The notes beneath the pieces were generated by a model. It searched no databases. It was not told the DNA's origin and saw only the letters and a list, made by a program, of their open reading frames with translations. The position numbers and the translations under genes were made by a program. Positions 13,584 to 24,450 of a stretch of DNA of 25,973 bases are shown here, in pieces. Source of the stretch: a virus; the IMG/VR virus record IMGVR_UViG_3300047277_000166, positions 1 to 25,973 of that record; one strand, 5' to 3'. Numbering within the stretch: the stretch's first letter is position 1; each line of letters begins with the position of its first letter.

Positions 13584-13611
13584 ATTTTACACTACTTTTT
13601 CTATATGTCAA
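13584..13611 (-). promoter_or_regulatory. Promoter of the MazG-nrdB-nrdA operon
   Basis: Minus strand TTGACA (13606-13611), 16 bp, TAAAAT (13584-13589). The -35 lies inside the last codons of the primase gene. It would start a six-gene unit down to about 9442. Confidence 0.78.
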
Positions 13612-14617
13612 GTTTTTTCCAATTAATAAACTCCATCTTTGCTCTAAGGTTAACGAAAGTATGTTTTTCTATAATATCCTGAATATCCTCAGGTGTAAAT
13701 CCCGACAATATCATATCATTAATGTCTTTTTCCACAATCATTTCTGGCCAAATACAAATACTAAAATGATTATCGATAGCGTGATTCATCAATCTTAATA
13801 TTTCTTTATTTCTTGGTTCATTATCAAATACCAGAACAATTTTATGTATATCAAACAATTCTTCGGCATATTCCAGATTTGATCCTGAAACGGCTATTGC
13901 ATTTTTAAGAAACAACGAATCTATTGGTCCTTCCACAACATATATTGTTTCATTTTCATCAATTTTATTTAGACCAAATGCTTTAGGCGAATCTTCGGCC
14001 ATTTTTATTGTGATATATTTCAATTTGGAATCACCCAAAGTTCTTCCTTGAAATCCTATAAGTGTATTATCTTTATCGTAAAAAGGAATGACCAATCTTT
14101 TATCATTATCATATAGTTTTTTCTCAATATCCATATCAACATTGACAAATTGCTTATAATCTTCACAATAATAGAGTTCCGACCAATCGGATTCTGGTAT
14201 TTTTCTATTTTGAACGTAAATTTTAGCAAAATGCTCATCGGGGAGTGATGAAATCTTAGGTATTGGTAAAGATTTCTTAAACACCGGAACTGTAAATTTT
14301 ACATCTATTTTGGGTTCGGAAGTTTCGATTGTTTGTGGATTTTTGTCTTTATATCGTTCTAAAGCATATTCCTGAACAAGATTTTCATCTACTTGTTTTA
14401 GAAAATTATAAAATGTGGTACTAACACCACAATTATGACACATATAGAAGTAATCATTTTCTTTTCGATATACGAAACCACGACACTTGGTTTTATCTTT
14501 AAATGAATCTCCACACAAGGGGCATCGGAATTGATAAAGGTCGTCTTTTTTGCGGGTAAATCTTGTTAATTTAGGGGAAAGTCTAAGCAGGAAAGTTCTA
14601 TCAATAAAAACACTCAT
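13601..14617 (-). CDS. 61: DNA primase, T4 gp61-like
   Basis: 338 residues, near the 342 of T4 gp61. An N-terminal zinc ribbon has C32-x-x-C35 (FRCPLCGD) and C60-x-x-C63 (YMCHNCGV), for template recognition. A central region has RLVIPFYDKDNTLIGFQGRT (173-192), as in DnaG-type primases, followed by the Toprim fold: VVEGPIDSLFL (E229, D233) and VLVFDNEPRNKEI (D265). Primase makes RNA primers for lagging-strand synthesis together with the gp41 helicase, which is not in this window. It has its own consensus promoter, and its 3' end contains the -35 of the next operon. Confidence 0.9.
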   Translation of the reverse strand: MSVFIDRTFLLRLSPKLTRFTRKKDDLYQFRCPLCGDSFKDKTKCRGFVYRKENDYFYMCHNCGVSTTFYNFLKQVDENLVQEYALERYKDKNPQTIETSEPKIDVKFTVPVFKKSLPIPKISSLPDEHFAKIYVQNRKIPESDWSELYYCEDYKQFVNVDMDIEKKLYDNDKRLVIPFYDKDNTLIGFQGRTLGDSKLKYITIKMAEDSPKAFGLNKIDENETIYVVEGPIDSLFLKNAIAVSGSNLEYAEELFDIHKIVLVFDNEPRNKEILRLMNHAIDNHFSICIWPEMIVEKDINDMILSGFTPEDIQDIIEKHTFVNLRAKMEFINWKKLDI

Positions 14618-14676: not shown

Positions 14677-15078
14677 TTATTTGAATATATCTAAATGATT
14701 CAATAAGAAACCAAAAGCGATACAACCACCAGCAATCAGCCAGCGCCAATTCTCTAAAACGGTTAATCGATCTGATATTGATTTATGCTGTGTCATAGAT
14801 TTGTCCGCATGTTCTTTTAGTTTTAAGTCTATGCGTTCTTCCATATCTTCCAGTTTTTCAACAATTTCCTTAGTGTCTTCATTCATCTTCTTATATAAAT
14901 CCCTAACATCTGTTATAGTTTCTTTACTACCAGTTTCGAGATTAAGGATTCTGGCATCATGCACAGATAATAACCTAGTTATGTCTGTTGACGCTTTTGC
15001 TATTTCAGCAACGGTGTTGTCTATTTTGTATACAACTGCTTGGAGCACTGCAACATCAGTATTTAAACCATTAATCAT
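14677..15078 (-). CDS. Coiled-coil protein with C-terminal membrane anchor, XhlA-like, 133 aa
   Basis: Residues about 10-105 are strongly heptad-patterned (VLQAVVYKIDNTVAEIAKAS; YKKMNEDTKEIVEKLEDMEE; ISDRLTVLENW). The C-terminus WRWLIAGGCIAFGFLLNHLD is a single membrane segment. This plan matches the haemolysin XhlA-type proteins often found in phage lysis cassettes. It starts inside the end of the inner-membrane spanin gene (8-base overlap), supporting a lysis or envelope role. It could alternatively be a superinfection or structural anchor. Confidence 0.7.
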   Translation of the reverse strand: MINGLNTDVAVLQAVVYKIDNTVAEIAKASTDITRLLSVHDARILNLETGSKETITDVRDLYKKMNEDTKEIVEKLEDMEERIDLKLKEHADKSMTQHKSISDRLTVLENWRWLIAGGCIAFGFLLNHLDIFK

Positions 15079-15658
15079 TATTTAGTTCCTGTTGTTTGTT
15101 GATCCAAGATTGTAAGGATTTTAATTGTTCGACTACTTGATAATAGGTTCCGTAGTTTTGACTAACGGTTTCTGCAACGGTAGAGAGTTTAACATCGGAG
15201 GAGTCTTCATTAACAGTTCCGGTGGATTCGGGAACTTCATTTTTTGCTGCATTGTCGTGCAGGATGACAAACCCATTATTAATAGTACACTTATCATCAG
15301 ATTCTTTGGTAATGTATATAGGCACTTTCTTAATGATTTCATGGGTTTTACCTTCAACTATCTTAACACGGTCAACATATTGTGTTACAACTTCTTGAGT
15401 TATTTCGGAAGCTGCAAGTTCTTGTTTTGCTATAATGGTTTCCAATTCTTTAACTTTCAATTGCCAAACATTATCATTACTAATAGCACCAACCATAAAC
15501 AAACCAAAAGCACAAGCACTAATTGATATAAGTTTCAGCAATAATTGATATTTCATTGGCAACAATTTACCAATAGTAAATGAGATTACTAACCCCGTTA
15601 CACCTGAAGGAATAAGTATATAAAATATCCATTGTGGTAACCAAGTTAGTAAAAACAT
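15071..15658 (-). CDS. Inner-membrane spanin-like (Rz-like) protein, 195 aa
   Basis: Two hydrophobic segments near the N-terminus (about 8-29, WIFYILIPSGVTGLVISFTI; about 38-58, LLLKLISISACAFGLFMVGA), followed by a long periplasmic helical part (VWQLKVKELETIIAKQELAA; ITQEVVTQYVDRVKIVEG) and a C-terminal helix (YYQVVEQLKSLQSWINKQQE). The membrane anchor plus coiled coil fits an i-spanin, which links inner and outer membranes in the last step of lysis. A lipoprotein frame that fits the o-spanin is nested inside it (15133-15342), a hallmark of Rz/Rz1 pairs. Two membrane segments instead of one is unusual. Confidence 0.78.
   Translation of the reverse strand: MFLLTWLPQWIFYILIPSGVTGLVISFTIGKLLPMKYQLLLKLISISACAFGLFMVGAISNDNVWQLKVKELETIIAKQELAASEITQEVVTQYVDRVKIVEGKTHEIIKKVPIYITKESDDKCTINNGFVILHDNAAKNEVPESTGTVNEDSSDVKLSTVAETVSQNYGTYYQVVEQLKSLQSWINKQQELNND
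15133..15342 (-). CDS. Nested outer-membrane spanin lipoprotein (Rz1-like), 69 aa
   Basis: Lies wholly inside the i-spanin gene in another frame. It starts MKSLRKCLYTLPKNLMISVL with a basic n-region, a hydrophobic core (LMISVLLIMG) and a lipobox LSSC with the lipidated Cys at residue 28. The mature part of 42 residues is Pro-rich (KFPNPPELLMKTPPML, LPLQKP), exactly the character of Rz1 proteins. GAAGG lies 8 bases before the ATG at 15342; the frame extends to a TTG at 15357, which is less likely. The product would go to the inner face of the outer membrane and bind the i-spanin. Confidence 0.8.
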   Translation of the reverse strand: MKSLRKCLYTLPKNLMISVLLIMGLSSCTTMQQKMKFPNPPELLMKTPPMLNSLPLQKPLVKTTEPIIK

Positions 15659-17165: not shown

Positions 17166-17354
17166 CTAGTTTGGTTTACGGGTTAAAATTGGTGTGAGTA
17201 TTGGATTTCTTTTTTTCTTATTACCTATGCTGACTCCAGGCTCACCTTCTGGACCAACACCAAGACCCGCAACAACACCAGATCCAGCAGTATTACCGCC
17301 ATCTGCGGACATTGCTCCACCAATATCTTCAAAAAATTGTTTGAATGTTTTCAT
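17166..17354 (-). CDS. Small predicted internal head protein, 62 aa
   Basis: Begins MKTFKQFFEDIGG, which matches the T4 capsid targeting sequence type (MKTYQEFIAE) with Glu at residue 9. After a Gly/Ala-rich stretch (GAMSADGGNTAGSGVVAGLG) comes GPEGEPGVSIGNKKKRNPIL and a basic tail TPILTRKPN. The rest is disordered and basic at the end, as in packaged internal proteins that contact DNA. It resembles the last 54 residues of the 20768-22279 protein. The stop of the upstream 17351-17737 gene overlaps its ATG by 4 bases. Confidence 0.65.
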   Translation of the reverse strand: MKTFKQFFEDIGGAMSADGGNTAGSGVVAGLGVGPEGEPGVSIGNKKKRNPILTPILTRKPN

Positions 17355-17737
17355 AATTCTCTTAATTTATTAGCGACATTCATATCAATTAATATGTCAT
17401 CAGAATGTATGTTTTTACCATTAATGCCTGTAATAATATCAGGCATCATATTTAAGTATATTAAAAATGTTTTAAGTATACCATAATCATCAACATCAAA
17501 TTTAAAAAATAATATCTTTGTCGTTGGTTCTGGACCAAAAACATTACTTAGAAGAATTATATGGTTTAATATTAACCTTTCTTTTAAATCTTGTGTAATA
17601 TTATATTTACGAATTAATTTCTTAATGTATTTAGTTCGTCTAATATCTGCTTCAAATTCTGACATTATGCACCTAGGTGCTGAATAACACTTCAATGCAT
17701 AGACAAGAAAATTATCCTCAGTTAAATTAGAGATCAT
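17351..17737 (-). CDS. DUF7207-like conserved phage protein, 128 aa
   Basis: Starts MISNLTEDNFLVYALKCYSA, then PRCIMSEFEADIRRTKYIKK, LKERLILNHIILLSNVFGPE, and TKILFFKFDVDDYGILKTFL. The order FLxYAxKxY..P.C, FxxDxxRxKYIKKL, RLILNHIVLLxNVFGP and LFFK...LKTFLIYLN is, from memory, that of a conserved T4-like phage family (DUF7207) with no established function. The start codon lies in the loop of a 12-bp inverted repeat (17714-17760), and no normal ribosome binding site is visible. Confidence 0.8.
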   Translation of the reverse strand: MISNLTEDNFLVYALKCYSAPRCIMSEFEADIRRTKYIKKLIRKYNITQDLKERLILNHIILLSNVFGPEPTTKILFFKFDVDDYGILKTFLIYLNMMPDIITGINGKNIHSDDILIDMNVANKLREL

Positions 17738-17760
17738 ATTATATTATATTAACTGAGGAT
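17714..17760 (-). promoter_or_regulatory. 12-bp stem-loop presenting a start codon in its loop
   Basis: ATCCTCAGTTAA at 17714-17725 pairs with 17749-17760. The 23-nt AU-rich loop of the minus-strand RNA contains the AUG at 17737. The downstream arm encodes codons 5-8 of the gene, so the stem is kept under coding constraint. No Shine-Dalgarno is seen in the loop. Confidence 0.65.
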
Positions 17761-17766
17761 TTATTT

Positions 17767-18396
17767 TTAAGAAATTGTAATATTTGCGTTGGCAGAAGTT
17801 ACTGCAGCTGCACCAGTACCATTAGCATTAACAACAACACGCACTTTGTAAGTGTTGGCGGTTGTTGTTAGAGCATTAGCTGTTAATGTTGAACTAGTAT
17901 TACCCGTAAATAATGTACCGCCAGTTGACGTATTAGCCCAAACAGAACCGTTATTAAACTGCCAGTAATAATTTAATGGAGCCGAACCAGTTCCAGAAGC
18001 AACCACCGAATATGTGATTGTATTGCCGGTGCCGGAAATAGCAGAACCATTAGATGGTTGTGTTGTGATAGTGATTAAAGTATCTTTGTAGATAACATCT
18101 TCAGAATCAAGTGACATTGATGTGCTGGTAGATAAAATCTCTTGAGTAATACGACCAGCTCTGCCACCAGAACCAACAACTCTTTTAATCCAACCAGAAC
18201 CTGTGTGATTGGTTGAAGCTTCACTATCATCAACACCAAACACACCTATGGTTTGACCAGTTATAAAAGCATCGGCTGTGGTGTTGTTGAATAGTGAAAC
18301 AGCATTAGCGCTGTCTGGTGTTCTGTTTACTGTTGCAGCTGCCCATAAAGGTACATTTGCAGAATTATCATAATTTCTAGGTGAAGTACGTGACAT
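17767..18396 (-). CDS. Virion structural protein with Ig-like C-terminal domain, 209 aa
   Basis: The N-terminal part (VPLWAAATVNRTPDSANAVS; GQTIGVFGVDDSEA; GSGWIKRVVGSGGRAGRITQ) resembles a repeated structural module in virion proteins of aquatic myoviruses. From residue about 108 a domain reads ITITTQPSNGSAISGTGNTI, YSVVASGTGSAPLNYYWQFN and TYKVRVVVNANGTG, the beta-sandwich pattern of Ig-like/PKD-type domains (with the YYWQ core Trp), which phages display on capsids and tails to hold cells or mucus. AAGAGGTTC precedes the ATG. Confidence 0.75.
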   Translation of the reverse strand: MSRTSPRNYDNSANVPLWAAATVNRTPDSANAVSLFNNTTADAFITGQTIGVFGVDDSEASTNHTGSGWIKRVVGSGGRAGRITQEILSTSTSMSLDSEDVIYKDTLITITTQPSNGSAISGTGNTITYSVVASGTGSAPLNYYWQFNNGSVWANTSTGGTLFTGNTSSTLTANALTTTANTYKVRVVVNANGTGAAAVTSANANITIS

Positions 18397-18431
18397 GTTT
18401 TTGAACCTCTTATTAAATTTTAATTATATAA

Positions 18432-19010
18432 CTATTTAGTTATTTTCTGTTTTTGGTTTAGTGTAGGAGTTAATCCATTTGTAACTTGCATATTAGGATT
18501 AAACTCCACATCATCTCTTTTTTCGCCGGTTAATGTAGTTCCCCCCTTTAAAACGGAACCAACATTAGGCTTATTATCACCGAAACTAGATTTTTCTGAG
18601 GTATTTACCAATTTAGGTTTTTTACCATAAACAGTAACATCCTTATCTTCAGCAACACCATGGTGTTTATAAATTGATTTGATTATTCTAGCTGATTTGG
18701 ATAATTGTTTTCCTCTAGAATTGGATTCAACTTCCATACCTACTGTTTGTGTTGCTGCTTTAGGGTCTTGAAATTTATCTTCCTCAAGAACATCCAAATC
18801 TTCAAGTTCAACGGATTCCATACCATGTGTCATTCTAGCTTTATCATAATGATCCCGTTTCCATTTGCTGAAATCACCAGTTTTTGAATGTGAAATCATT
18901 TGATTGCGAGAAACATATCTTGGATCCAGACCTTTTGACTTAAGATACTTCTGTAATGCTGGATGCATCACATTAGACCATTCTACCAAATCTTTAAATG
19001 TTTTTGACAT
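18432..19010 (-). CDS. Predicted internal head protein, 192 aa
   Basis: Begins MSKTFKDLVEWSNV: MSKTFKDLVE fits the capsid targeting type with L-V-E at residues 8-10, the T4 prohead protease pattern. A helical segment (HPALQKYLKSKGLDPRYVSR) and basic stretch (KWKRDHYDKARM) follow, then ESVELEDLDVLEED (about 66-79) with further Glu-containing cleavage-like sites. The C-terminal half is basic and disordered (KSARIIKSIYKHHGVAEDKD; KKPKLVNTSEKSS). Domain content and position between the Ig-like protein and the large internal protein fit a packaged DNA-associated protein. No enzyme motif is seen. The ribosome binding site is weak. Confidence 0.68.
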   Translation of the reverse strand: MSKTFKDLVEWSNVMHPALQKYLKSKGLDPRYVSRNQMISHSKTGDFSKWKRDHYDKARMTHGMESVELEDLDVLEEDKFQDPKAATQTVGMEVESNSRGKQLSKSARIIKSIYKHHGVAEDKDVTVYGKKPKLVNTSEKSSFGDNKPNVGSVLKGGTTLTGEKRDDVEFNPNMQVTNGLTPTLNQKQKITK

Positions 19011-19026
19011 ATTATTCTCAATATTC

Positions 19027-20766
19027 TTAGTTATGGTACATATTTAGTTCGTGATTATTTGCCAAATCATTACCACGATTATACACTTGGATATGTGCTA
19101 CTTTTTTAGAAGGCACACCATCTTTATGTAAAGGTATATGTAATGAAACAGTTTTGCCCTCAGATGGTTTTGATGGTCCAGCATTTACATGATGAAACCA
19201 ATCATCCGGATGAATGTCAAAACCTTGTTTATTCAAATGTTTCTCTGCATGCTGGACAGCTGAAGAATATGATGGATGATAAATTTGATAAGAATCTTTC
19301 TTAGCTTCATCTAATTCTTTTTTGGGTAATTTAGGAGATATCTTTCGGTTTTGTTCAAGTTTTGTATTTTCAGAAGCTTTCTTATAAATTCTATCCAAAA
19401 CAGCCATTGTAGATTTCTTACGATCAGAACGAACACTTTCACCCAATTCAAATTCTTCTTTGTGTGTAAGGTCTTTATCTAATTCATCATCATCTTCTTT
19501 AGGAGCTCTCTTTGATAATTTAGACATTTCTTTACTTGGGTCAGTTTTTCGGTCTGCTTTAATTGGCTTTGCTTTCATTCTAGCAAGTTCACGATCAGCA
19601 CGAGCAACATCAGGATCTTCATCATCATAAGACTCTTTAACTTTACCTCTGTTTTTTACTTCATGGGAAATAATTCTATCTTGAACTTTTTTAGTTTTAG
19701 TGTCAAAAATACTTTTAGGGTTTTTTGACCAATTTTTTAATTGATCATCACCCAAACCTCTAACTTGTTTTTTCAACTCTGTAGTAGTTCTACCATCTGA
19801 ATCCCAAACCTTTTCATCCAATTCAACTTCCTCTTTGCGATATTTGTCTAATATACCATCAGCAGCATCAGAATGTTGTTGAATCATATCTTGATGATGA
19901 CCTTTTATAATTGGACTTTTTGCTTTTTTATATTGATTAATATGATTTTGTTCCATTTTTTTATGGCCCAGATACGATTGCCGGTCTTTAGTATCCGCAA
20001 TGAGATTTTCAGGATTAGAGTCTTCTTCTAATTCAACTTCCTCATGAGCTTTGAGTTTCTTGAAAGTATGTTTGGCGATCTTCTTAATATTATCAACATG
20101 GTCAGAAAGACCATCTTCGTTGGTAACAAAAGGAACACTATCATCTTCTGGACGTTTACCTTCAGTAATTCCACCAACTATTTCAGTATAACAATCCATA
20201 GATAATGTTTTACCTGAAGCACTCAATTCAGTTAATTTTTCAGCAACTTTATGTAAATCCATATCTGATTTAGCATCTTCTTTTGAATATTCCATTATTC
20301 TAATTAACAGAGGAATGTCCATAGTTACTTTATCGACAGCATTTTCTTCATCTAGTTCAACCGATTCTGATGTTGAACGAGTTCTATTAATTGTATTCCA
20401 TTTGTTTATGGCTTTATCACTACCACCAAAACTTTTTCTAATTTTGTTAGATGTTTTATCATAGTCGGGATGTGATATTTTGTTTTCGATAGAATTGCGT
20501 AAAGCATCACGTTTCACAGCACTTCTATCGAGATATGATTTGATTGCGGGAGAGGTATCTAATATTTCATCAACTCTTTCAAGTTCTTCAGCATTTAATT
20601 CCACTTTGTATGCTGTATGTTCATTATCACCCGCAGCTGCTGGAATTTTAACACGACCAGCTAATGTATCAGTTGTTCTTTTTTTAACATTAAGTTTTTC
20701 ATCCAATTGAAGCACATTAGATACAGCATCAATAATTGACTGTGAGATAATATCTTTTGAAAACAT
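19027..20766 (-). CDS. Large predicted internal head protein with multiple protease-like sites, 579 aa
   Basis: Starts MFSKDIISQSIIDAVSNVLQ, chosen because GGTTAAATAAA precedes this ATG; a longer frame to 20814 overlaps the upstream gene without a ribosome binding site. Charged and mostly disordered. Six Glu-rich sites recur: LQLDE (19-23), SVELDEE (135-141), EVELEED (243-249), EVELDEK (313-319), EFELGES (438-444), KELDEAK (493-499). These fit [L/I]-x-E cleavage by a T4-type prohead protease and divide the chain into segments of about 50-120 residues. The last 80 residues (YSSAVQHAEKHLNKQGFDIH; SLHIPLHKDG; NHELNMYHN) look like a folded domain shared, as I recall, by other phage head-associated proteins. 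Confidence 0.7.
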   Translation of the reverse strand: MFSKDIISQSIIDAVSNVLQLDEKLNVKKRTTDTLAGRVKIPAAAGDNEHTAYKVELNAEELERVDEILDTSPAIKSYLDRSAVKRDALRNSIENKISHPDYDKTSNKIRKSFGGSDKAINKWNTINRTRSTSESVELDEENAVDKVTMDIPLLIRIMEYSKEDAKSDMDLHKVAEKLTELSASGKTLSMDCYTEIVGGITEGKRPEDDSVPFVTNEDGLSDHVDNIKKIAKHTFKKLKAHEEVELEEDSNPENLIADTKDRQSYLGHKKMEQNHINQYKKAKSPIIKGHHQDMIQQHSDAADGILDKYRKEEVELDEKVWDSDGRTTTELKKQVRGLGDDQLKNWSKNPKSIFDTKTKKVQDRIISHEVKNRGKVKESYDDEDPDVARADRELARMKAKPIKADRKTDPSKEMSKLSKRAPKEDDDELDKDLTHKEEFELGESVRSDRKKSTMAVLDRIYKKASENTKLEQNRKISPKLPKKELDEAKKDSYQIYHPSYSSAVQHAEKHLNKQGFDIHPDDWFHHVNAGPSKPSEGKTVSLHIPLHKDGVPSKKVAHIQVYNRGNDLANNHELNMYHN

Positions 20767-20767
20767 T

Positions 20768-22279
20768 TTATTTAACCTTTTTCTTTTTGTTGATTGTGAT
20801 ACCTGAAGTTCCAAATTTATCCATTGGAGTTACAAGTGGTTCCTTATTGGATGCTCCACCACATCCGCCAGATATTCCCATTTCATTATCATTGTCGTTG
20901 ATATCTTCTTTAAATGATCTAAATGATTTAAGTGTTGGTCGTTTTATTTCTCGTTCTTCAGAATATGATACATTACCCAAACCAGACATAGGATAAACAG
21001 TACCAGAACCTCTAGTTTCCAATTCAGGACCAACACCAGGAGTTTTTATTCTTCTTGACGGACTACTGATTGGTGTTAATTTATCATCATCAAACAACAA
21101 TTTTTTAGATTTGTTTAATGTTGGTTTAGAAACACTTTTAGCTATAGATTGTTCCAAGAACAATGTTGTGTGTTTATAGACATCATCAACACCTTCTTCT
21201 ATATATTCAACGACATCCGAATTATGGAACGATATATAATTATCAAACATTTCATAAAAAGCGTCAACATTCTTTAAAGAAGTATTCCATTTATCATATC
21301 GAACAGATTCAGCAACCATGCGTTTTAATGTTGAATTTCTTTGTTGACTAAATTCATTGGATGTTTCAACAAACACCATCATAGTCTCATATCCCAATTC
21401 TTCTAGTTCTTCTTTGATATATGATATGGTATCCAAATCAGTAGCAGAACCATTGATTATAATTGGTTGATGTGTACGAATTGATTCCATACGCAAATTA
21501 TTAGATTTGATAGATAATTTTTGTTTATCACCTAAAATATTAAGTATTTGTGTATAATTATGTTCAACAATTTTGGATTCAGCAATAGCTTCACGAATTA
21601 TCAAATCTTTGCCAGAACCAGGTCCACCAGTTACAAATATTGCTTTATATGAACCTCGATTATACTGTTCATTAATGCCCATTCCTTTACGAACATCGTG
21701 CATCAATGCTTTAGTTTGATGTTCTGACACGTGGCCCGGAACACCTTTTTTAAATGAGTTTATATCATTGTTTTTCGCATGTTCTCTCATTTTGGTACCA
21801 GACATACCTTCTGTACCCTCAGCGTCAGGATCACGTTGACCGGCACTATGTACTGTTATCTTCTTGAAATTGTATAAAGCACCTTCATGTGTACCATTAT
21901 ATTGATGTAATTTATCATGCATTTCTTTAACACGATCAGAACCAACAACCATATGTAAATGATCATGACCAGCTTTATGTAATTTTGCAGCTTGGTGCAA
22001 GAACGTTGGATGTTCTTTATTGGAAGCTTCTATATTAACACCAGGAGAATATTTCTTTATATGGTGAATTTTTTGATCAGCCGATAATGGATTCTTCTTA
22101 CTATCTTGTGAATGTGAAGTAACAACCACATGAGGAGCATTCAACTTTTCCGCTGTTGAACGAACCTTATCAATAAGTTTCAAATGACCCGTGGTTGGAG
22201 GATTCATCCTACCATAGGTCATAACTACTGGTTTGTGTGTTTCGTCTTTTTCTTTAACTGATTCTAAAAACGTTTTCAT
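20768..22279 (-). CDS. NMN-adenylyltransferase-like plus P-loop kinase-like fusion with capsid targeting leader, 503 aa
   Basis: Residues 1-10 (MKTFLESVKE) fit a capsid targeting leader. Residues 17-195 form a nucleotidyltransferase of the HxGH family: TYGRMNPPTTGH (G23 to H32), MVVGSDR (110-116) and GMSGTKMR (158-165), the ISGTxxR motif of NMN adenylyltransferases. A P-loop follows, VTGGPGSGKDLI (216-227), with a kinase-like region ending near 400. The order adenylyltransferase then kinase is that of NadR (NMN adenylyltransferase and nicotinamide riboside kinase). The last 54 residues are Gly-rich and basic and resemble the small protein at 17166-17354. Substrates are not proven: FAD synthetase or cytidylyltransferase activity is possible. 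Confidence 0.78.
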   Translation of the reverse strand: MKTFLESVKEKDETHKPVVMTYGRMNPPTTGHLKLIDKVRSTAEKLNAPHVVVTSHSQDSKKNPLSADQKIHHIKKYSPGVNIEASNKEHPTFLHQAAKLHKAGHDHLHMVVGSDRVKEMHDKLHQYNGTHEGALYNFKKITVHSAGQRDPDAEGTEGMSGTKMREHAKNNDINSFKKGVPGHVSEHQTKALMHDVRKGMGINEQYNRGSYKAIFVTGGPGSGKDLIIREAIAESKIVEHNYTQILNILGDKQKLSIKSNNLRMESIRTHQPIIINGSATDLDTISYIKEELEELGYETMMVFVETSNEFSQQRNSTLKRMVAESVRYDKWNTSLKNVDAFYEMFDNYISFHNSDVVEYIEEGVDDVYKHTTLFLEQSIAKSVSKPTLNKSKKLLFDDDKLTPISSPSRRIKTPGVGPELETRGSGTVYPMSGLGNVSYSEEREIKRPTLKSFRSFKEDINDNDNEMGISGGCGGASNKEPLVTPMDKFGTSGITINKKKKVK

Positions 22280-23247
22280 TAATCGCTATGTCCCAAAGTC
22301 TTCTTAAAAGCATGTAAGTGTTCATCTTTATCTAAATCGACAGAACTTTTATCTAATCCTTTAACACCATCTGGATGAAAAGCAACTGTTCTAGCACTTT
22401 TTTGTCCTTTTGCTTTTTCTCTGATTCTCCACTTACCCTTACCTGAAATTGCAGGTAAACCATGGCCAGTTTCATCTTTATCACCAACTCTATAAGTACC
22501 ATGGCCACCAACCTGTAATACATGTACATGGTGGTCTTTCAAATATGCGTGAGCTGGTTCTAGGTTTGGATGTTTTATCTCAAGTGTTTTTGCACGACCA
22601 GAAGCTGTAGCAGGTTCGGTTGTAGGATCAGGATGATGTTTATTCATGTGATCTAAAATACCGGACTTTTCAATGTGTTTAGCATATTCTGGTCTTTTTG
22701 ATCTTAGTGCATCTTTAATATGCCATCCTTTCTCATGCGTATGATGTATTGTTAATTGACCCATCGCAGCAGTAACACCATTTTTCGTTTCACCATTCAA
22801 TAGGTGTCCGGAAACGGTACCAGCATGAAAAACACCTTTCTTTTTATTTTCTACAGCAAAATCCGTACCACCCGTTGAACCCGCACCAGATAAATGTTTT
22901 GGCATGACACCATGTTTTTTTAATCTATCGACAAAGTTTGTTTCATATTCATGACCTTTGTTTTTAGGTTCGTCACCAGGTTTATGCAATTTTGAAATAG
23001 GAATTACATGATGGTTTCCAGTTTCATCTTCAGCATGAACATGTATTTTACCTTTAACGTTTTCGGTTTTGTGTATTTTTATAGCAGAACCTTTAGGTAA
23101 ATCATCATGTTCTTTAGCTAAAATGTGTGTTGGTTTATCAGAACCAACATGAGGATCAATATATTTTCTCTGATGTTCCTCACCCGTAGCACCAGACGCA
23201 GTTAATGTTCCTCGACCCTCAACAATATATGTACTAAACGTTTTCAT
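22279..23247 (-). CDS. Putative PD-(D/E)XK-type nuclease with capsid targeting leader, 322 aa
   Basis: Begins MKTFSTYIVE, with I-V-E at 8-10, then GRGTLTASGATGEEHQRKYI. Residues about 50-90 look like a small beta-barrel (GSAIKIHKTE; GKIHVHAEDETGNHHVIPIS). The middle part has the order GHEYE (E100/E102), GSTGGTDFAVENK (D129), LNGETKNG (E153-x-K155) and AAMGQLTI (Q164), matching the D...ExK...Q pattern of restriction-like nucleases and Holliday junction resolvases. The C-terminal half is His- and Lys-rich. His makes up about 10% of the protein. A 60-nt in-frame extension to 23307 runs back into the upstream gene; the ATG at 23247, one base after that gene's stop and behind AAAGGG, is preferred. 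Confidence 0.6.
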   Translation of the reverse strand: MKTFSTYIVEGRGTLTASGATGEEHQRKYIDPHVGSDKPTHILAKEHDDLPKGSAIKIHKTENVKGKIHVHAEDETGNHHVIPISKLHKPGDEPKNKGHEYETNFVDRLKKHGVMPKHLSGAGSTGGTDFAVENKKKGVFHAGTVSGHLLNGETKNGVTAAMGQLTIHHTHEKGWHIKDALRSKRPEYAKHIEKSGILDHMNKHHPDPTTEPATASGRAKTLEIKHPNLEPAHAYLKDHHVHVLQVGGHGTYRVGDKDETGHGLPAISGKGKWRIREKAKGQKSARTVAFHPDGVKGLDKSSVDLDKDEHLHAFKKTLGHSD

Positions 23248-23248
23248 T

Positions 23249-24397
23249 TTAACCCTTTCCAAATCTAGGATTGTTGAGGATAGCATTTGAAACTTTAACA
23301 GGTACAAGTTTAGTTGCTGGTCTCATGTGGCCAGTCTTCTCGTCTTTCTTCTGTAGTACAATACCTTCACCTTGTGACTTCTTTCCATCAATACTAGTTT
23401 CCATGTCAGGATGTTCTACACCCTTTAATACATGTTCTGTAGCTTGACCAAGGTGATGACGTATATCCAATGATCTTTGGAAATGATGTTGGTTTTTATC
23501 AACATGGTCGCTTAATGCTTTAAACTTTTCAATATGTTTAGCTTTTGCTGCATCAGTCTTCACTTTTGATGCTGATTTTTCACCTTCATCTTTCAGGTGT
23601 TGTTTATATCCCTCAACAGATGCTGTTTCACCACGTCTGGTAGTTCTATTATTGTAGATATTGAAGTGGCCACCTTTCTTAGCTTCAATATGTTCTGGTG
23701 TAAGGTGATCAGTTGTATGTCCTTTCATTAATGCTTTTGCTGCATTTATATGATGTTCGGTACCTGCCCTATCTTCTTTTGAGTATGTTGATGGTTTTGG
23801 TTTATATTCGTGTTCAGGCACAAAAACATTTGGACTATGTTTCAATGCATGTTTAGTTACACCATGAGCAACACCATGAGTAACTTCGGTATGAACTGCG
23901 ATACCAATTGGTGCTTTTGTTTTTGCTTTATATGTTATTCTATTAGGTGTTGTTGTGATATGTTCACCCGATTGGTGACCCGGTTCTTGAGGTGTGTGAA
24001 GCAAATCACCCTGAACATGATGACCTTTATTGACAAATTCGTGACCGTGTTTTAATAGATGTTTAAGTGCTTTTGCATATTCTGGTTGATGTCCGAAATG
24101 ATGATCAACTTCTTCAGGAGATCGTGCGACAACACCTCTAGCTATACGATGTTTATCAGATACACCAACACCATGTTCGTCATGTATAACATGTACAGAT
24201 GATCCACCGTCAGACTTTAATGAAGCTCCAACAGGACTAGATTGACCCATTCGTTTCTTGTGGAATTGATGTAATAGATCAACTGCTAAATGGGCATGTT
24301 TAGGGTCTTCATGGGGCACATCTTTTGTATGTGTTAAGTGACCTAGTTGATCTTCTTCGACCGAAGATTCTCGTAAAAATGTAGCAAATGTTTTCAT
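23249..24397 (-). CDS. DUF6267-like protein with DNA/RNA-ligase-type nucleotidyltransferase motifs and capsid targeting leader, 382 aa
   Basis: Begins MKTFATFLRE (L-R-E at 8-10), the capsid targeting pattern. Then GASLKSDGGSSVHV (K61-x-D63-G64) fits motif I of ATP-dependent ligases and capping enzymes, HHVQGDLLHT (127-136) fits motif III, GIAVHTEVTHG (165-175) follows as in DUF6267, GEGIVLQKKD (343-352) fits motif IV (EGxV), and ATKLVPVKV (K363) motif V. The set suggests covalent nucleotidyl transfer on Lys61, but the Arg of the usual KxDGxR is Ser here. About 11.5% His (44 of 382 by count). First gene behind the late promoter at 24443. Confidence 0.72.
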   Translation of the reverse strand: MKTFATFLRESSVEEDQLGHLTHTKDVPHEDPKHAHLAVDLLHQFHKKRMGQSSPVGASLKSDGGSSVHVIHDEHGVGVSDKHRIARGVVARSPEEVDHHFGHQPEYAKALKHLLKHGHEFVNKGHHVQGDLLHTPQEPGHQSGEHITTTPNRITYKAKTKAPIGIAVHTEVTHGVAHGVTKHALKHSPNVFVPEHEYKPKPSTYSKEDRAGTEHHINAAKALMKGHTTDHLTPEHIEAKKGGHFNIYNNRTTRRGETASVEGYKQHLKDEGEKSASKVKTDAAKAKHIEKFKALSDHVDKNQHHFQRSLDIRHHLGQATEHVLKGVEHPDMETSIDGKKSQGEGIVLQKKDEKTGHMRPATKLVPVKVSNAILNNPRFGKG

Positions 24398-24442
24398 GTA
24401 TTATCCTTTGATTTTCAACACACTATGGTTGATATTATTACT

Positions 24443-24450
24443 TATTTATA
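24443..24450 (-). promoter_or_regulatory. Late promoter, T4-type TATAAATA
   Basis: Exact TATAAATA on the minus strand, 46 bp before the ATG at 24397 and outside any gene. In T4 this octamer is read by gp55-bound polymerase. It would drive the packaged-protein genes from 24397 downward. Confidence 0.75.

Follow-up and report, generated by a model that had tools for sequence, protein, structure and literature searches.

The internal proteins IPI, IPII, IPIII and Alt of bacteriophage T4 are packaged by means of an N-terminal leader of 10-19 residues, in which residues 4 and 7 serve targeting and an L/I-x-E site is cut by the protease gp21 (PMC9026906, PMC3012670). For IPIII, amber-suppressor tests reportedly traced targeting mainly to residues 4 and 7, and processing to residues 8 and 10; Asp at residue 10 prevents processing and permits targeting (PMC9026906). 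In the phiKZ group (phiKZ, 201phi2-1 and SPN3US), a protease resembling gp21 cleaves head proteins behind a Glu, and some of these proteins are thought to be ejected (PMC9026906). The DarA/Hdf proteins of phage P1 have been tied to head morphogenesis (PMC12810830). The subject of the present analysis is the virus record IMGVR_UViG_3300047277_000166, a 25,973-base genome fragment of an uncultured water phage with T4-like replication genes (the whole stretch is called the window below), and in particular five proteins encoded on its minus strand from 24397 to 17166, which begin with peptides resembling the T4 leaders.

The window proteins share with the T4 internal proteins the leader, the targeting residues 4 and 7 and the L/I-x-E site. 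They differ in their cargo, which comprises ligase-like, nuclease and NMNAT (NMN adenylyltransferase) enzymes, in their locus, and in having F at position 4, where the T4 leaders have Y. The phiKZ proteins, in contrast, have an S/A-X-E cut motif and are unrelated to those of the window, as are DarA/Hdf of P1. The favoured explanation, with a probability of about 0.8, is that the proteins of the cluster are packaged into the head by a T4-type leader and delivered to the host. The ligase-like protein, the nuclease, the NAD-making enzyme and two others would then probably enter the next host along with the phage DNA. For the ligase-like DUF6267 protein, for this nuclease and for NMNATs as a family, packaging by the leader is well supported; it is probable for a 62-residue protein resembling T4 gp61.1, and weakly indicated for a 192-residue protein.

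The existence of five closely similar N-terminal decapeptides, claimed in a sequence-only reading of this DNA, is confirmed: MKTFATFLRE starts at 24397, MKTFSTYIVE at 23247, MKTFLESVKE at 22279, MSKTFKDLVE at 19010 and MKTFKQFFED at 17354. For the nuclease, the TTG at 23307 that opens the longest reading frame was rejected as the start; the ATG at 23247, one base after the upstream stop, is where alignments with its relatives begin. All four residues mapped in IPIII are matched by DUF6267 (F4, F7, L8, E10) and by the nuclease (F4, Y7, I8, E10). Aromatic residues at both 4 and 7 are found in these two leaders and in the 62-residue protein (F4, F7). The L/I-x-E site ending at residue 10 is found in the same two (L8-R-E10 and I8-V-E10) and in the 192-residue protein (L8-V-E10). 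On a 12-column profile trained on 56 DUF6267 leaders, from which the window was excluded, the DUF6267 and nuclease leaders score 21.9 and 13.1 and are the only ones of the five to pass the threshold of 6. The AlphaFold models have pLDDT below 50 at residues 3-18 of DUF6267 and 1-11 of the nuclease and are more confident in the bodies. This is what a removable tag would lead one to expect, but disorder by itself is no proof. The window has a sixth MKTF start, MKTFKIFQEVQEV at 2035, which was not accepted as a leader. Because it scores 0.3 and precedes what appears by eye to be an unrelated small domain, MKTF alone is not sufficient to mark a leader.

The leader was followed through the IMG/VR relatives, for which 47 DUF6267 loci and the best 80 of 143 NMNAT loci gave 125 distinct loci (L007-L131). 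The full pattern was defined as F4, F/Y7, L/I8 and E10, and the partial pattern as F4, L/I/V/M8 and E10. Earlier counts took only alignments reaching residue 1, which favours leaders; the final recount given here dropped this condition and exposed leaderless nucleases and NMNATs. DUF6267 has the full pattern in 65 of 76 distinct N-termini, and in the remaining 11 the alignment begins no earlier than query residue 142, each representing the second half of a split or broken gene. Among the 57 distinct DUF6267 N-termini whose alignment starts at residue 1, no variation is seen at positions 1, 4 and 10, and residues 2, 3, 5, 6 and 9 carry 2.1-3.1 bits. M1, F4 and E10 are also invariant among 35 DUF6267 sequences with identities down to 23%, chosen from those aligned at residue 1. 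The four constrained leader positions of this family are the four positions mapped in T4 IPIII. In the NMNAT family, 62 of 74 distinct N-termini keep F4, L/I/V/M8 and E10; 16 of these have the full pattern and 46 the partial one (no aromatic residue at 7, or V/M at 8), with I, L, V or K common at residue 7. The nuclease has the full pattern in 7 of 19 distinct N-termini and the partial pattern in one. Conservation of an MKTF start in relatives, which had also been expected, thus does not hold for the letters MKTF and does hold for positions 4, 7, 8 and 10.

In at least nine distinct cases (L054, L059-L064, L070 and L073) the DUF6267 gene is split at one point into two reading frames, the second ATG overlapping the first stop (CATGACTAA). 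The leader stands on the first half only, so the second half may ride along.

When the profile was applied to the related records and loci at a score of 6, it matched 357 of 17,877 start-like ATGs (a figure that includes the training family) versus 10 of 34,139 internal ATGs. Owing to overlap between the loci and the whole records, some ATGs are counted twice. Some of the ten internal matches are probably true starts, for example MKSFKAYISEAE in the related record G001. The profile-matched starts fall into 31 clusters of protein bodies, the largest of which is over-merged through repeats. By this start-specific enrichment, the leaders are beyond chance. The only start-like match in T4 is gp61.1 (MKTFKEFIKE/D; here and below a slash marks the end of a leader or the position of a cut).

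The virion proteins reported for several T4-like cyanophages allow the leader to be compared with actual presence in the particle. The comparison covered the NMNATs (T4-GC190) of S-SM1, S-SCSM1, S-SZBM1 and S-CREM2, and S-CBWM1, whose NMNAT is also said to occur in virions, was left out. In a study by Sullivan and co-workers, T4-GC190 was reported from purified virions of S-SM1 and went undetected in the S-PM2 virion (PMC3037559). The N-terminus of the S-SM1 protein is MKKFSAFLNE/A; the S-PM2 NMNAT is leaderless and fused behind DUF6267 in one protein (L006 7983-9758; deletion mutant record LN828717). The NMNAT of S-SCSM1 was detected in virions (PMC9602691), that of S-SZBM1 (S-SZBM1_140) was found there with its neighbours _139 and _136 (PMC9146016), and that of S-CREM2 (gp154) is among 52 virion proteins (PMC10665884). 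Their N-termini are MKSFLQFLKE/A (S-SCSM1_91), MRFRQFIIE/A (one residue shorter, with Glu at 9) and MKNFSSFLTE/A, respectively. All four virion-detected NMNATs compared thus carry a leader. The window enzyme resembles them in having a related domain in a related block, and differs in being fused to a P-loop kinase and in the off-pattern residues 7 and 8 of its leader. For S-CREM1, the report of 14 virion proteins does not name an NMNAT among them in the part consulted (PMC9964418).

In S-CREM2 the comparison can be extended to the whole set of genes. The same profile, with one-residue-shorter leaders allowed and virion models given precedence in overlaps, gives a score of at least 0 to 5 of 215 gene models, and all five are among the 52 virion proteins (hypergeometric p 7.1e-4). 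They are the NMNAT, an APH-like kinase (with a GTG start), a SAM hydrolase, gp13 and gp136. By eye, the Cas9-like gp12 has FASFMAE/A at residues 19-25. All four virion enzymes that the authors classed as non-structural have a leader-like stretch, the two leaderless endolysins excepted. A second cluster of this phage (L267), far from the NMNAT block, comprises gp6, gp12, gp13, gp14 and gp15, which were detected in virions and most of which have leader-like starts; its cargo includes the SAM hydrolase, the Cas9-like nuclease, the APH-like kinase and small proteins. Weaker support comes from S-SCSM1, where two of three annotated-gene matches (_91 and _31) are virion proteins and two more matches lie in other frames within the polymerase and single-stranded DNA-binding protein genes, and from S-SZBM1, where one of three matches (_140) is among the 30 listed virion proteins.

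It has been considered that virion enzymes might be abundant proteins that survive purification, as the authors of two of these studies allow (PMC9602691, PMC10665884). In that case the common N-terminus would stem from translation start or from shared ancestry of an N-terminal element, and one apparently unrelated MKTF start does stand in the window, at 2035. This account is very unlikely: what is conserved is positions 4, 7, 8 and 10 with the Glu, not MKTF; the bodies behind the leaders fall into many clusters; and abundance alone would not predict that the leader tracks virion membership in S-CREM2.

The first protein of the cluster, DUF6267, matches PF19782 with 89.4 bits (cut-off 27), and K61, D63 and G64 (K-x-D-G) as well as E344, G345 and V347 (E-G-x-V) are invariant in the 35 sequences. 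These correspond to motif I and the late motif of covalent nucleotidyltransferases and nucleic-acid ligases. In its model (pLDDT 87.8) the fold appears to be that of a nucleic-acid ligase: the 50 listed of 162 Foldseek matches are all nucleic-acid ligases, with a best E of only 8.6e-3, and so are the 50 listed VIA rows, of which the best is the Naegleria RNA ligase (Z 8.3, rmsd 3.9, 183 aligned). Motifs and predicted fold therefore agree with the earlier assignment of a ligase-like protein. The assignment of the second protein to the restriction fold has likewise held up. E102, D129, E153, K155 and Q164 are invariant in 17 sequences, D129 with E153-x-K155 being the catalytic-type residues, and residues 96-320 of the model fit the HhaI endonuclease (Z 10.3, rmsd 3.7, 176 aligned), the only row above 8, the next being 6.9. 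HhaI belongs to the PD-(D/E)xK class. Residues 13-93 form a predicted SH3/Tudor-like domain.

Searches by sequence gave less. The nuclease family and ten further proteins searched had no Pfam match above cut-off, and for the nuclease Foldseek alone gave no match under E 0.001 and tblastn none in the phage collection. The DUF6267 and nuclease profiles found nothing credible among the sequences of solved structures, where the NMNAT-kinase found weak adenylate kinase matches only (E 0.004). The NMNAT-kinase matches PF01467 (28.9 bits, cut-off 21) and PF06414 (26.5 bits, cut-off 22.3), as well as phrog_3041 and phrog_395, contains TTGH, which fits the H/T-x-G-H motif, and has a relative in 528 phage records.

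Proteins targeted to the prohead need not be delivered to the host. They could instead serve head assembly or DNA packaging, as might be supposed from the early L-x-E or I-x-E sites of gp21, gp22 and a 164-residue protein near gp21 in G001, from the resemblance of gp61.1-like proteins to the capsid protein N-arm, and from the possibility that the repeat-rich protein of the cluster is a core polyprotein. Such a purpose is unlikely, since the catalytic-type residues are invariant (KxDG in 35/35, D129 and ExK in 17/17), since some relatives lack the enzymes or have them without a leader, so that assembly does not depend on them, and since unrelated enzymes (SAM hydrolase and kinase) share the leader in S-CREM2.

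The sequence-only reading had named a gp21-type protease elsewhere in the genome as a check. No match to gp21 (PF03420) occurs within the 25,973 bases of the window, which also lacks the capsid-protein gene; among relatives, 9 of the 14 records searched have one, as do T4, S-PM2, ACG-2014h, S-CREM2, S-SZBM1 and S-SCSM1. The five gp21-negative records are contigs of 35-118 kb. G005, the one of them that was examined, is incomplete, because it has no gp22 or gp23 match either. At the place of the T4 cut (SFLTE/A), the capsid proteins of relatives have AFLSE/A, AFLGE/I, ALNE/T, LLSE/V and MLNE/V, as inferred from alignment. These sites are close to the L/I-x-E rule described for T4-type cleavage (PMC9026906).

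The following observations weigh against packaging of the whole cluster by the leader. All virion data come from relatives, the window itself has no gp21 match, and the caution of the virion authors about surviving proteins has been mentioned. Three of the five window leaders are below the profile threshold: that of the NMNAT (2.5) is off-pattern at S7 and V8 (V8-K-E10), that of the 192-residue protein (-15.2) has T4, with F at 5, and D7, yet L8-V-E10, and that of the 62-residue protein (-6.2) fits at F4 and F7, but has E9 and D10. The leader-like start of the 192-residue protein recurs in one close relative (L007, MSKTFKSLME), and other relatives align downstream. Twelve of the 74 NMNAT and 11 of the 19 nuclease N-termini lack the pattern. 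Among the patternless nucleases, L113 has it shifted one residue later, L026 reflects a late start choice, and L031 and L036 are other proteins aligning only from residue 98. One clade (L059, L074, L083 and L102) has a longer N-terminus without F4 and F7 that ends in ILSE/GR or ILTE/GR at the same junction, before the conserved GRG, as if the cut site alone had been retained. No profile match at score 6 was found in HTVC008M, where the block is present, or in S-PM2 and ACG-2014h, whose block enzymes are leaderless. T4 leaders of the IPI type and the Alt type score 5.4 and -21.3, respectively, so the profile is narrow. S-SCSM1_30 bears a leader and is not flagged as a virion protein, and the leader-bearing S-SZBM1_191 and _192 are not reported in virions.

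These deviations and low scores leave a place for partial packaging, in which DUF6267 and the nuclease enter the head and the NMNAT-kinase, the 192-residue and the 62-residue proteins of this virus do so poorly or not at all. The behaviour of Asp10 in IPIII, which abolishes processing and keeps targeting, would be in line with this. Partial packaging is possible, at clearly less than even odds: the residues common at position 7 of NMNAT relatives are as varied as noted above, NMNATs are present in four virions (those have F there), and relatives of the 62-residue protein carry E10 leaders. The original proposal of a pre-formed enzyme kit in the capsid thus stands in part. The leader pattern in the DUF6267, nuclease and NMNAT families, gp21 in relatives and the NMNAT orthologues in four virions speak for it; the off-pattern window leaders and the leaderless part of the nuclease family do not.

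The 62-residue protein lies between the DUF7207 gene and the primase-like gene, the place of gp61.1 in T4, with the same layout. It is like T4 gp61.1 in its leader, its short body with Gly-rich and basic parts and its place near gp61, and unlike it in having Glu at 9 and Asp at 10; the N-arm comparison that follows was made in genomes with a capsid-protein gene. In each of six records, all reading frames were ranked by local BLOSUM62 alignment to the N-arm that the phage's own capsid protein has after maturation. The gp61.1-like protein is the best match genome-wide in T4 (L161, 18966-19130; 81 vs 46 for the next), S-CREM2 (gp160; 90 vs 43), S-SCSM1 (_97; 81 vs 44) and G001 (131825; 54 vs 36). 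It is second in Melnitz-2 (41 vs 42) and outside the top four in HTVC008M. In a comparison over ten records, the cognate arm takes first place in four, second place in three and a lower place in the other three, with low scores in S-PM2, ACG-2014h and HTVC008M, and none of 20,000 permutations reaches the sum of the cognate scores. In T4 gp61.1 the match takes in the leader, which resembles the end of the capsid propeptide. Two GenBank entries name a relative of T4 61.1 'major capsid protein', in line with the N-arm resemblance. The window's protein resembles gp61.1, whose N-arm mimicry is seen in T4 itself.

The repeat-rich protein of the cluster might be a substrate of gp21. Because its module IPLLIR begins a short way behind a Glu in all 11 distinct contexts, following a leader in L009 and L057 and an internal junction (VELDE/E) in the window, gp21 cleavage of this protein inside the head is suggested, the polyprotein idea being drawn from the module junctions alone. 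The count of [LIM]xE sites in the protein is not enriched (9 vs 7.5 in shuffles, with 33% of shuffles reaching it). Repeat-rich proteins of relatives have junctions of the EEVELDE or EEVEQIDE type, and whereas some phages encode the module as a protein of its own with a leader, others have it within a longer protein.

The features of the cluster are collected in Table 1.

Table 1. Features of the leader-bearing cluster, in window positions
Feature	Coordinates	Strand	Remarks
TATAAATA late-promoter-type motif	24443..24450	-	5' end 53 bp ahead of first leader-bearing gene
DUF6267 ligase-like protein, 382 aa	23249..24397	-	leader MKTFATFLRE/SS at 24368-24397
SH3/Tudor-like domain + PD-(D/E)xK-like nuclease, 322 aa	22279..23247	-	leader MKTFSTYIVE/GR at 23218-23247
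NMNAT/cytidylyltransferase-like + P-loop kinase-like fusion, 503 aa	20768..22279	-	leader MKTFLESVKE/KD at 22250-22279
Repeat-rich protein, 579 aa, ATG 20766	19027..20766	-	VELDE, VELEE, FELGE and ELDE junctions; possible prohead polyprotein
192-aa protein	18432..19010	-	weak leader-like start MSKTFKDLVE/WS at 18981-19010
Ig/S-layer-like protein	17767..18396	-	position matches cyanophage virion structural protein T4-GC_537
DUF7207 protein (T4-GC_198)	17351..17737	-	block marker without leader; PF23837 113 bits
gp61.1-like protein, 62 aa	17166..17354	-	leader MKTFKQFFE(D) at 17325-17354; Gly-rich middle, basic tail

The repeat-rich, Ig/S-layer-like and DUF7207 proteins are interspersed among the five leader proteins. 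A similar block is found between the helicase (gp41) and primase (gp61)/NrdA genes in Pelagibacter phage HTVC008M, Methylophilales phage Melnitz-2 and the cyanophages ACG-2014h, S-PM2, S-SZBM1 and S-SCSM1. Its contents vary between phages and include DUF6267 (T4-GC_71), NMNAT/cytidylyltransferase (T4-GC190), repeat-rich proteins, the structural protein T4-GC_537 and DUF7207, orthologues of which are present in all seven blocks compared. The window has a primase-like gene at 13601-14617 (by eye) and ends before the helicase side. The Ig/S-layer-like protein has weak similarity to SSCSM1_95 (33%, E 0.017), with Pfam Ig_3 under cut-off. In S-SCSM1, seven genes of the block (_89 to _93, _95 and _97) are flagged as virion proteins in GenBank, and S-SCSM1_90, at the place of DUF6267, is not a DUF6267 protein. 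The block of S-CREM2 sits between gp55 and the primase, with no DUF6267 in the portion examined. Outside the cluster, a membrane protein at 15071-15658 with a lipoprotein-like frame nested in another frame (15133-15357, LSSC) resembles, by eye, an Rz/Rz1 spanin pair.

The motif TATAAATA, which is the T4-type late promoter motif, lies 40-68 bp from the start in 38 of 73 distinct regions upstream of DUF6267 genes, the window included, versus about 2% at random places. It was found upstream of none of 92 NMNAT and none of 8 nuclease genes, both of which would be internal to the operon. Within the window its count is not above chance (4 vs 4.84 expected), and only its placement is informative. The motif also stands ahead of the scaffold gene gp22 in G001, G002 and G004 when followed from the motif to the next gene, and by eye ahead of other structural genes too. 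In a scan of the 200 bp upstream of gp21, gp22 and gp23 it occurred in 4 of 36 cases (12 records), the start choice for gp22 being poor in that its alignments begin inside the gene. In the same three AT-rich genomes its count is about a third of that expected from base composition (10-11 per genome vs 30-35), as if selected against outside late promoters. Late synthesis fits proteins that travel to the next cell inside the head. The phage of the window is quite probably T4-like (Kyanoviridae-like), and the cluster a late operon for proteins carried inside the head.

By combining these observations it is possible to propose how the cluster might work. The ten-residue leaders would bind the prohead core and be cut by gp21 after Glu10 inside the prohead, and the trimmed enzymes would be ejected with the DNA into the host. 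Proteins made late would be better placed for the start of the next infection than for their own. As the likeliest use, the NMNAT and the kinase might make NAD at once or restore it where host defences deplete it, and the nuclease and ligase might cut and seal nucleic acid. Rescue against such defences is a guess made in view of phage NAD pathways, which are reportedly treated in the literature (PMC12774641, PMC13232231).

On a broader and more tentative view, somewhat short of an even chance, Kyanoviridae-like phages might possess a modular head-delivery system, in which a ten-residue tag loads any enzyme, gp21 matures it and it is injected. The enzyme kit would be accompanied by peptides released from a polyprotein at internal sites resembling the tag and by an N-arm mimic, the SAM hydrolase, kinase and Cas9-like protein of S-CREM2 would belong to the same system, and gp61.1 would be an overlooked internal protein of T4.

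The leader is not mentioned in the consulted parts of the T4-GC190 virion literature compared, nor did a word search of the text of PMC10665884 and PMC9602691 find it. No account of it in these phages was found in the open-licence PubMed Central literature, which does not show that none exists. How NMNAT, SAM hydrolase and Cas9-like proteins come to be in T4-like virions has had no explanation, and a leader that can be read from the sequence would supply one. It would allow the injected proteome of uncultured phages to be predicted, and it makes directly testable which proteins reach the host ahead of any phage gene expression. The leader may also reveal that T4 itself has an internal protein so far unrecognised (gp61.1), and may show in what way these phages counter restriction and the depletion of NAD by host defences.

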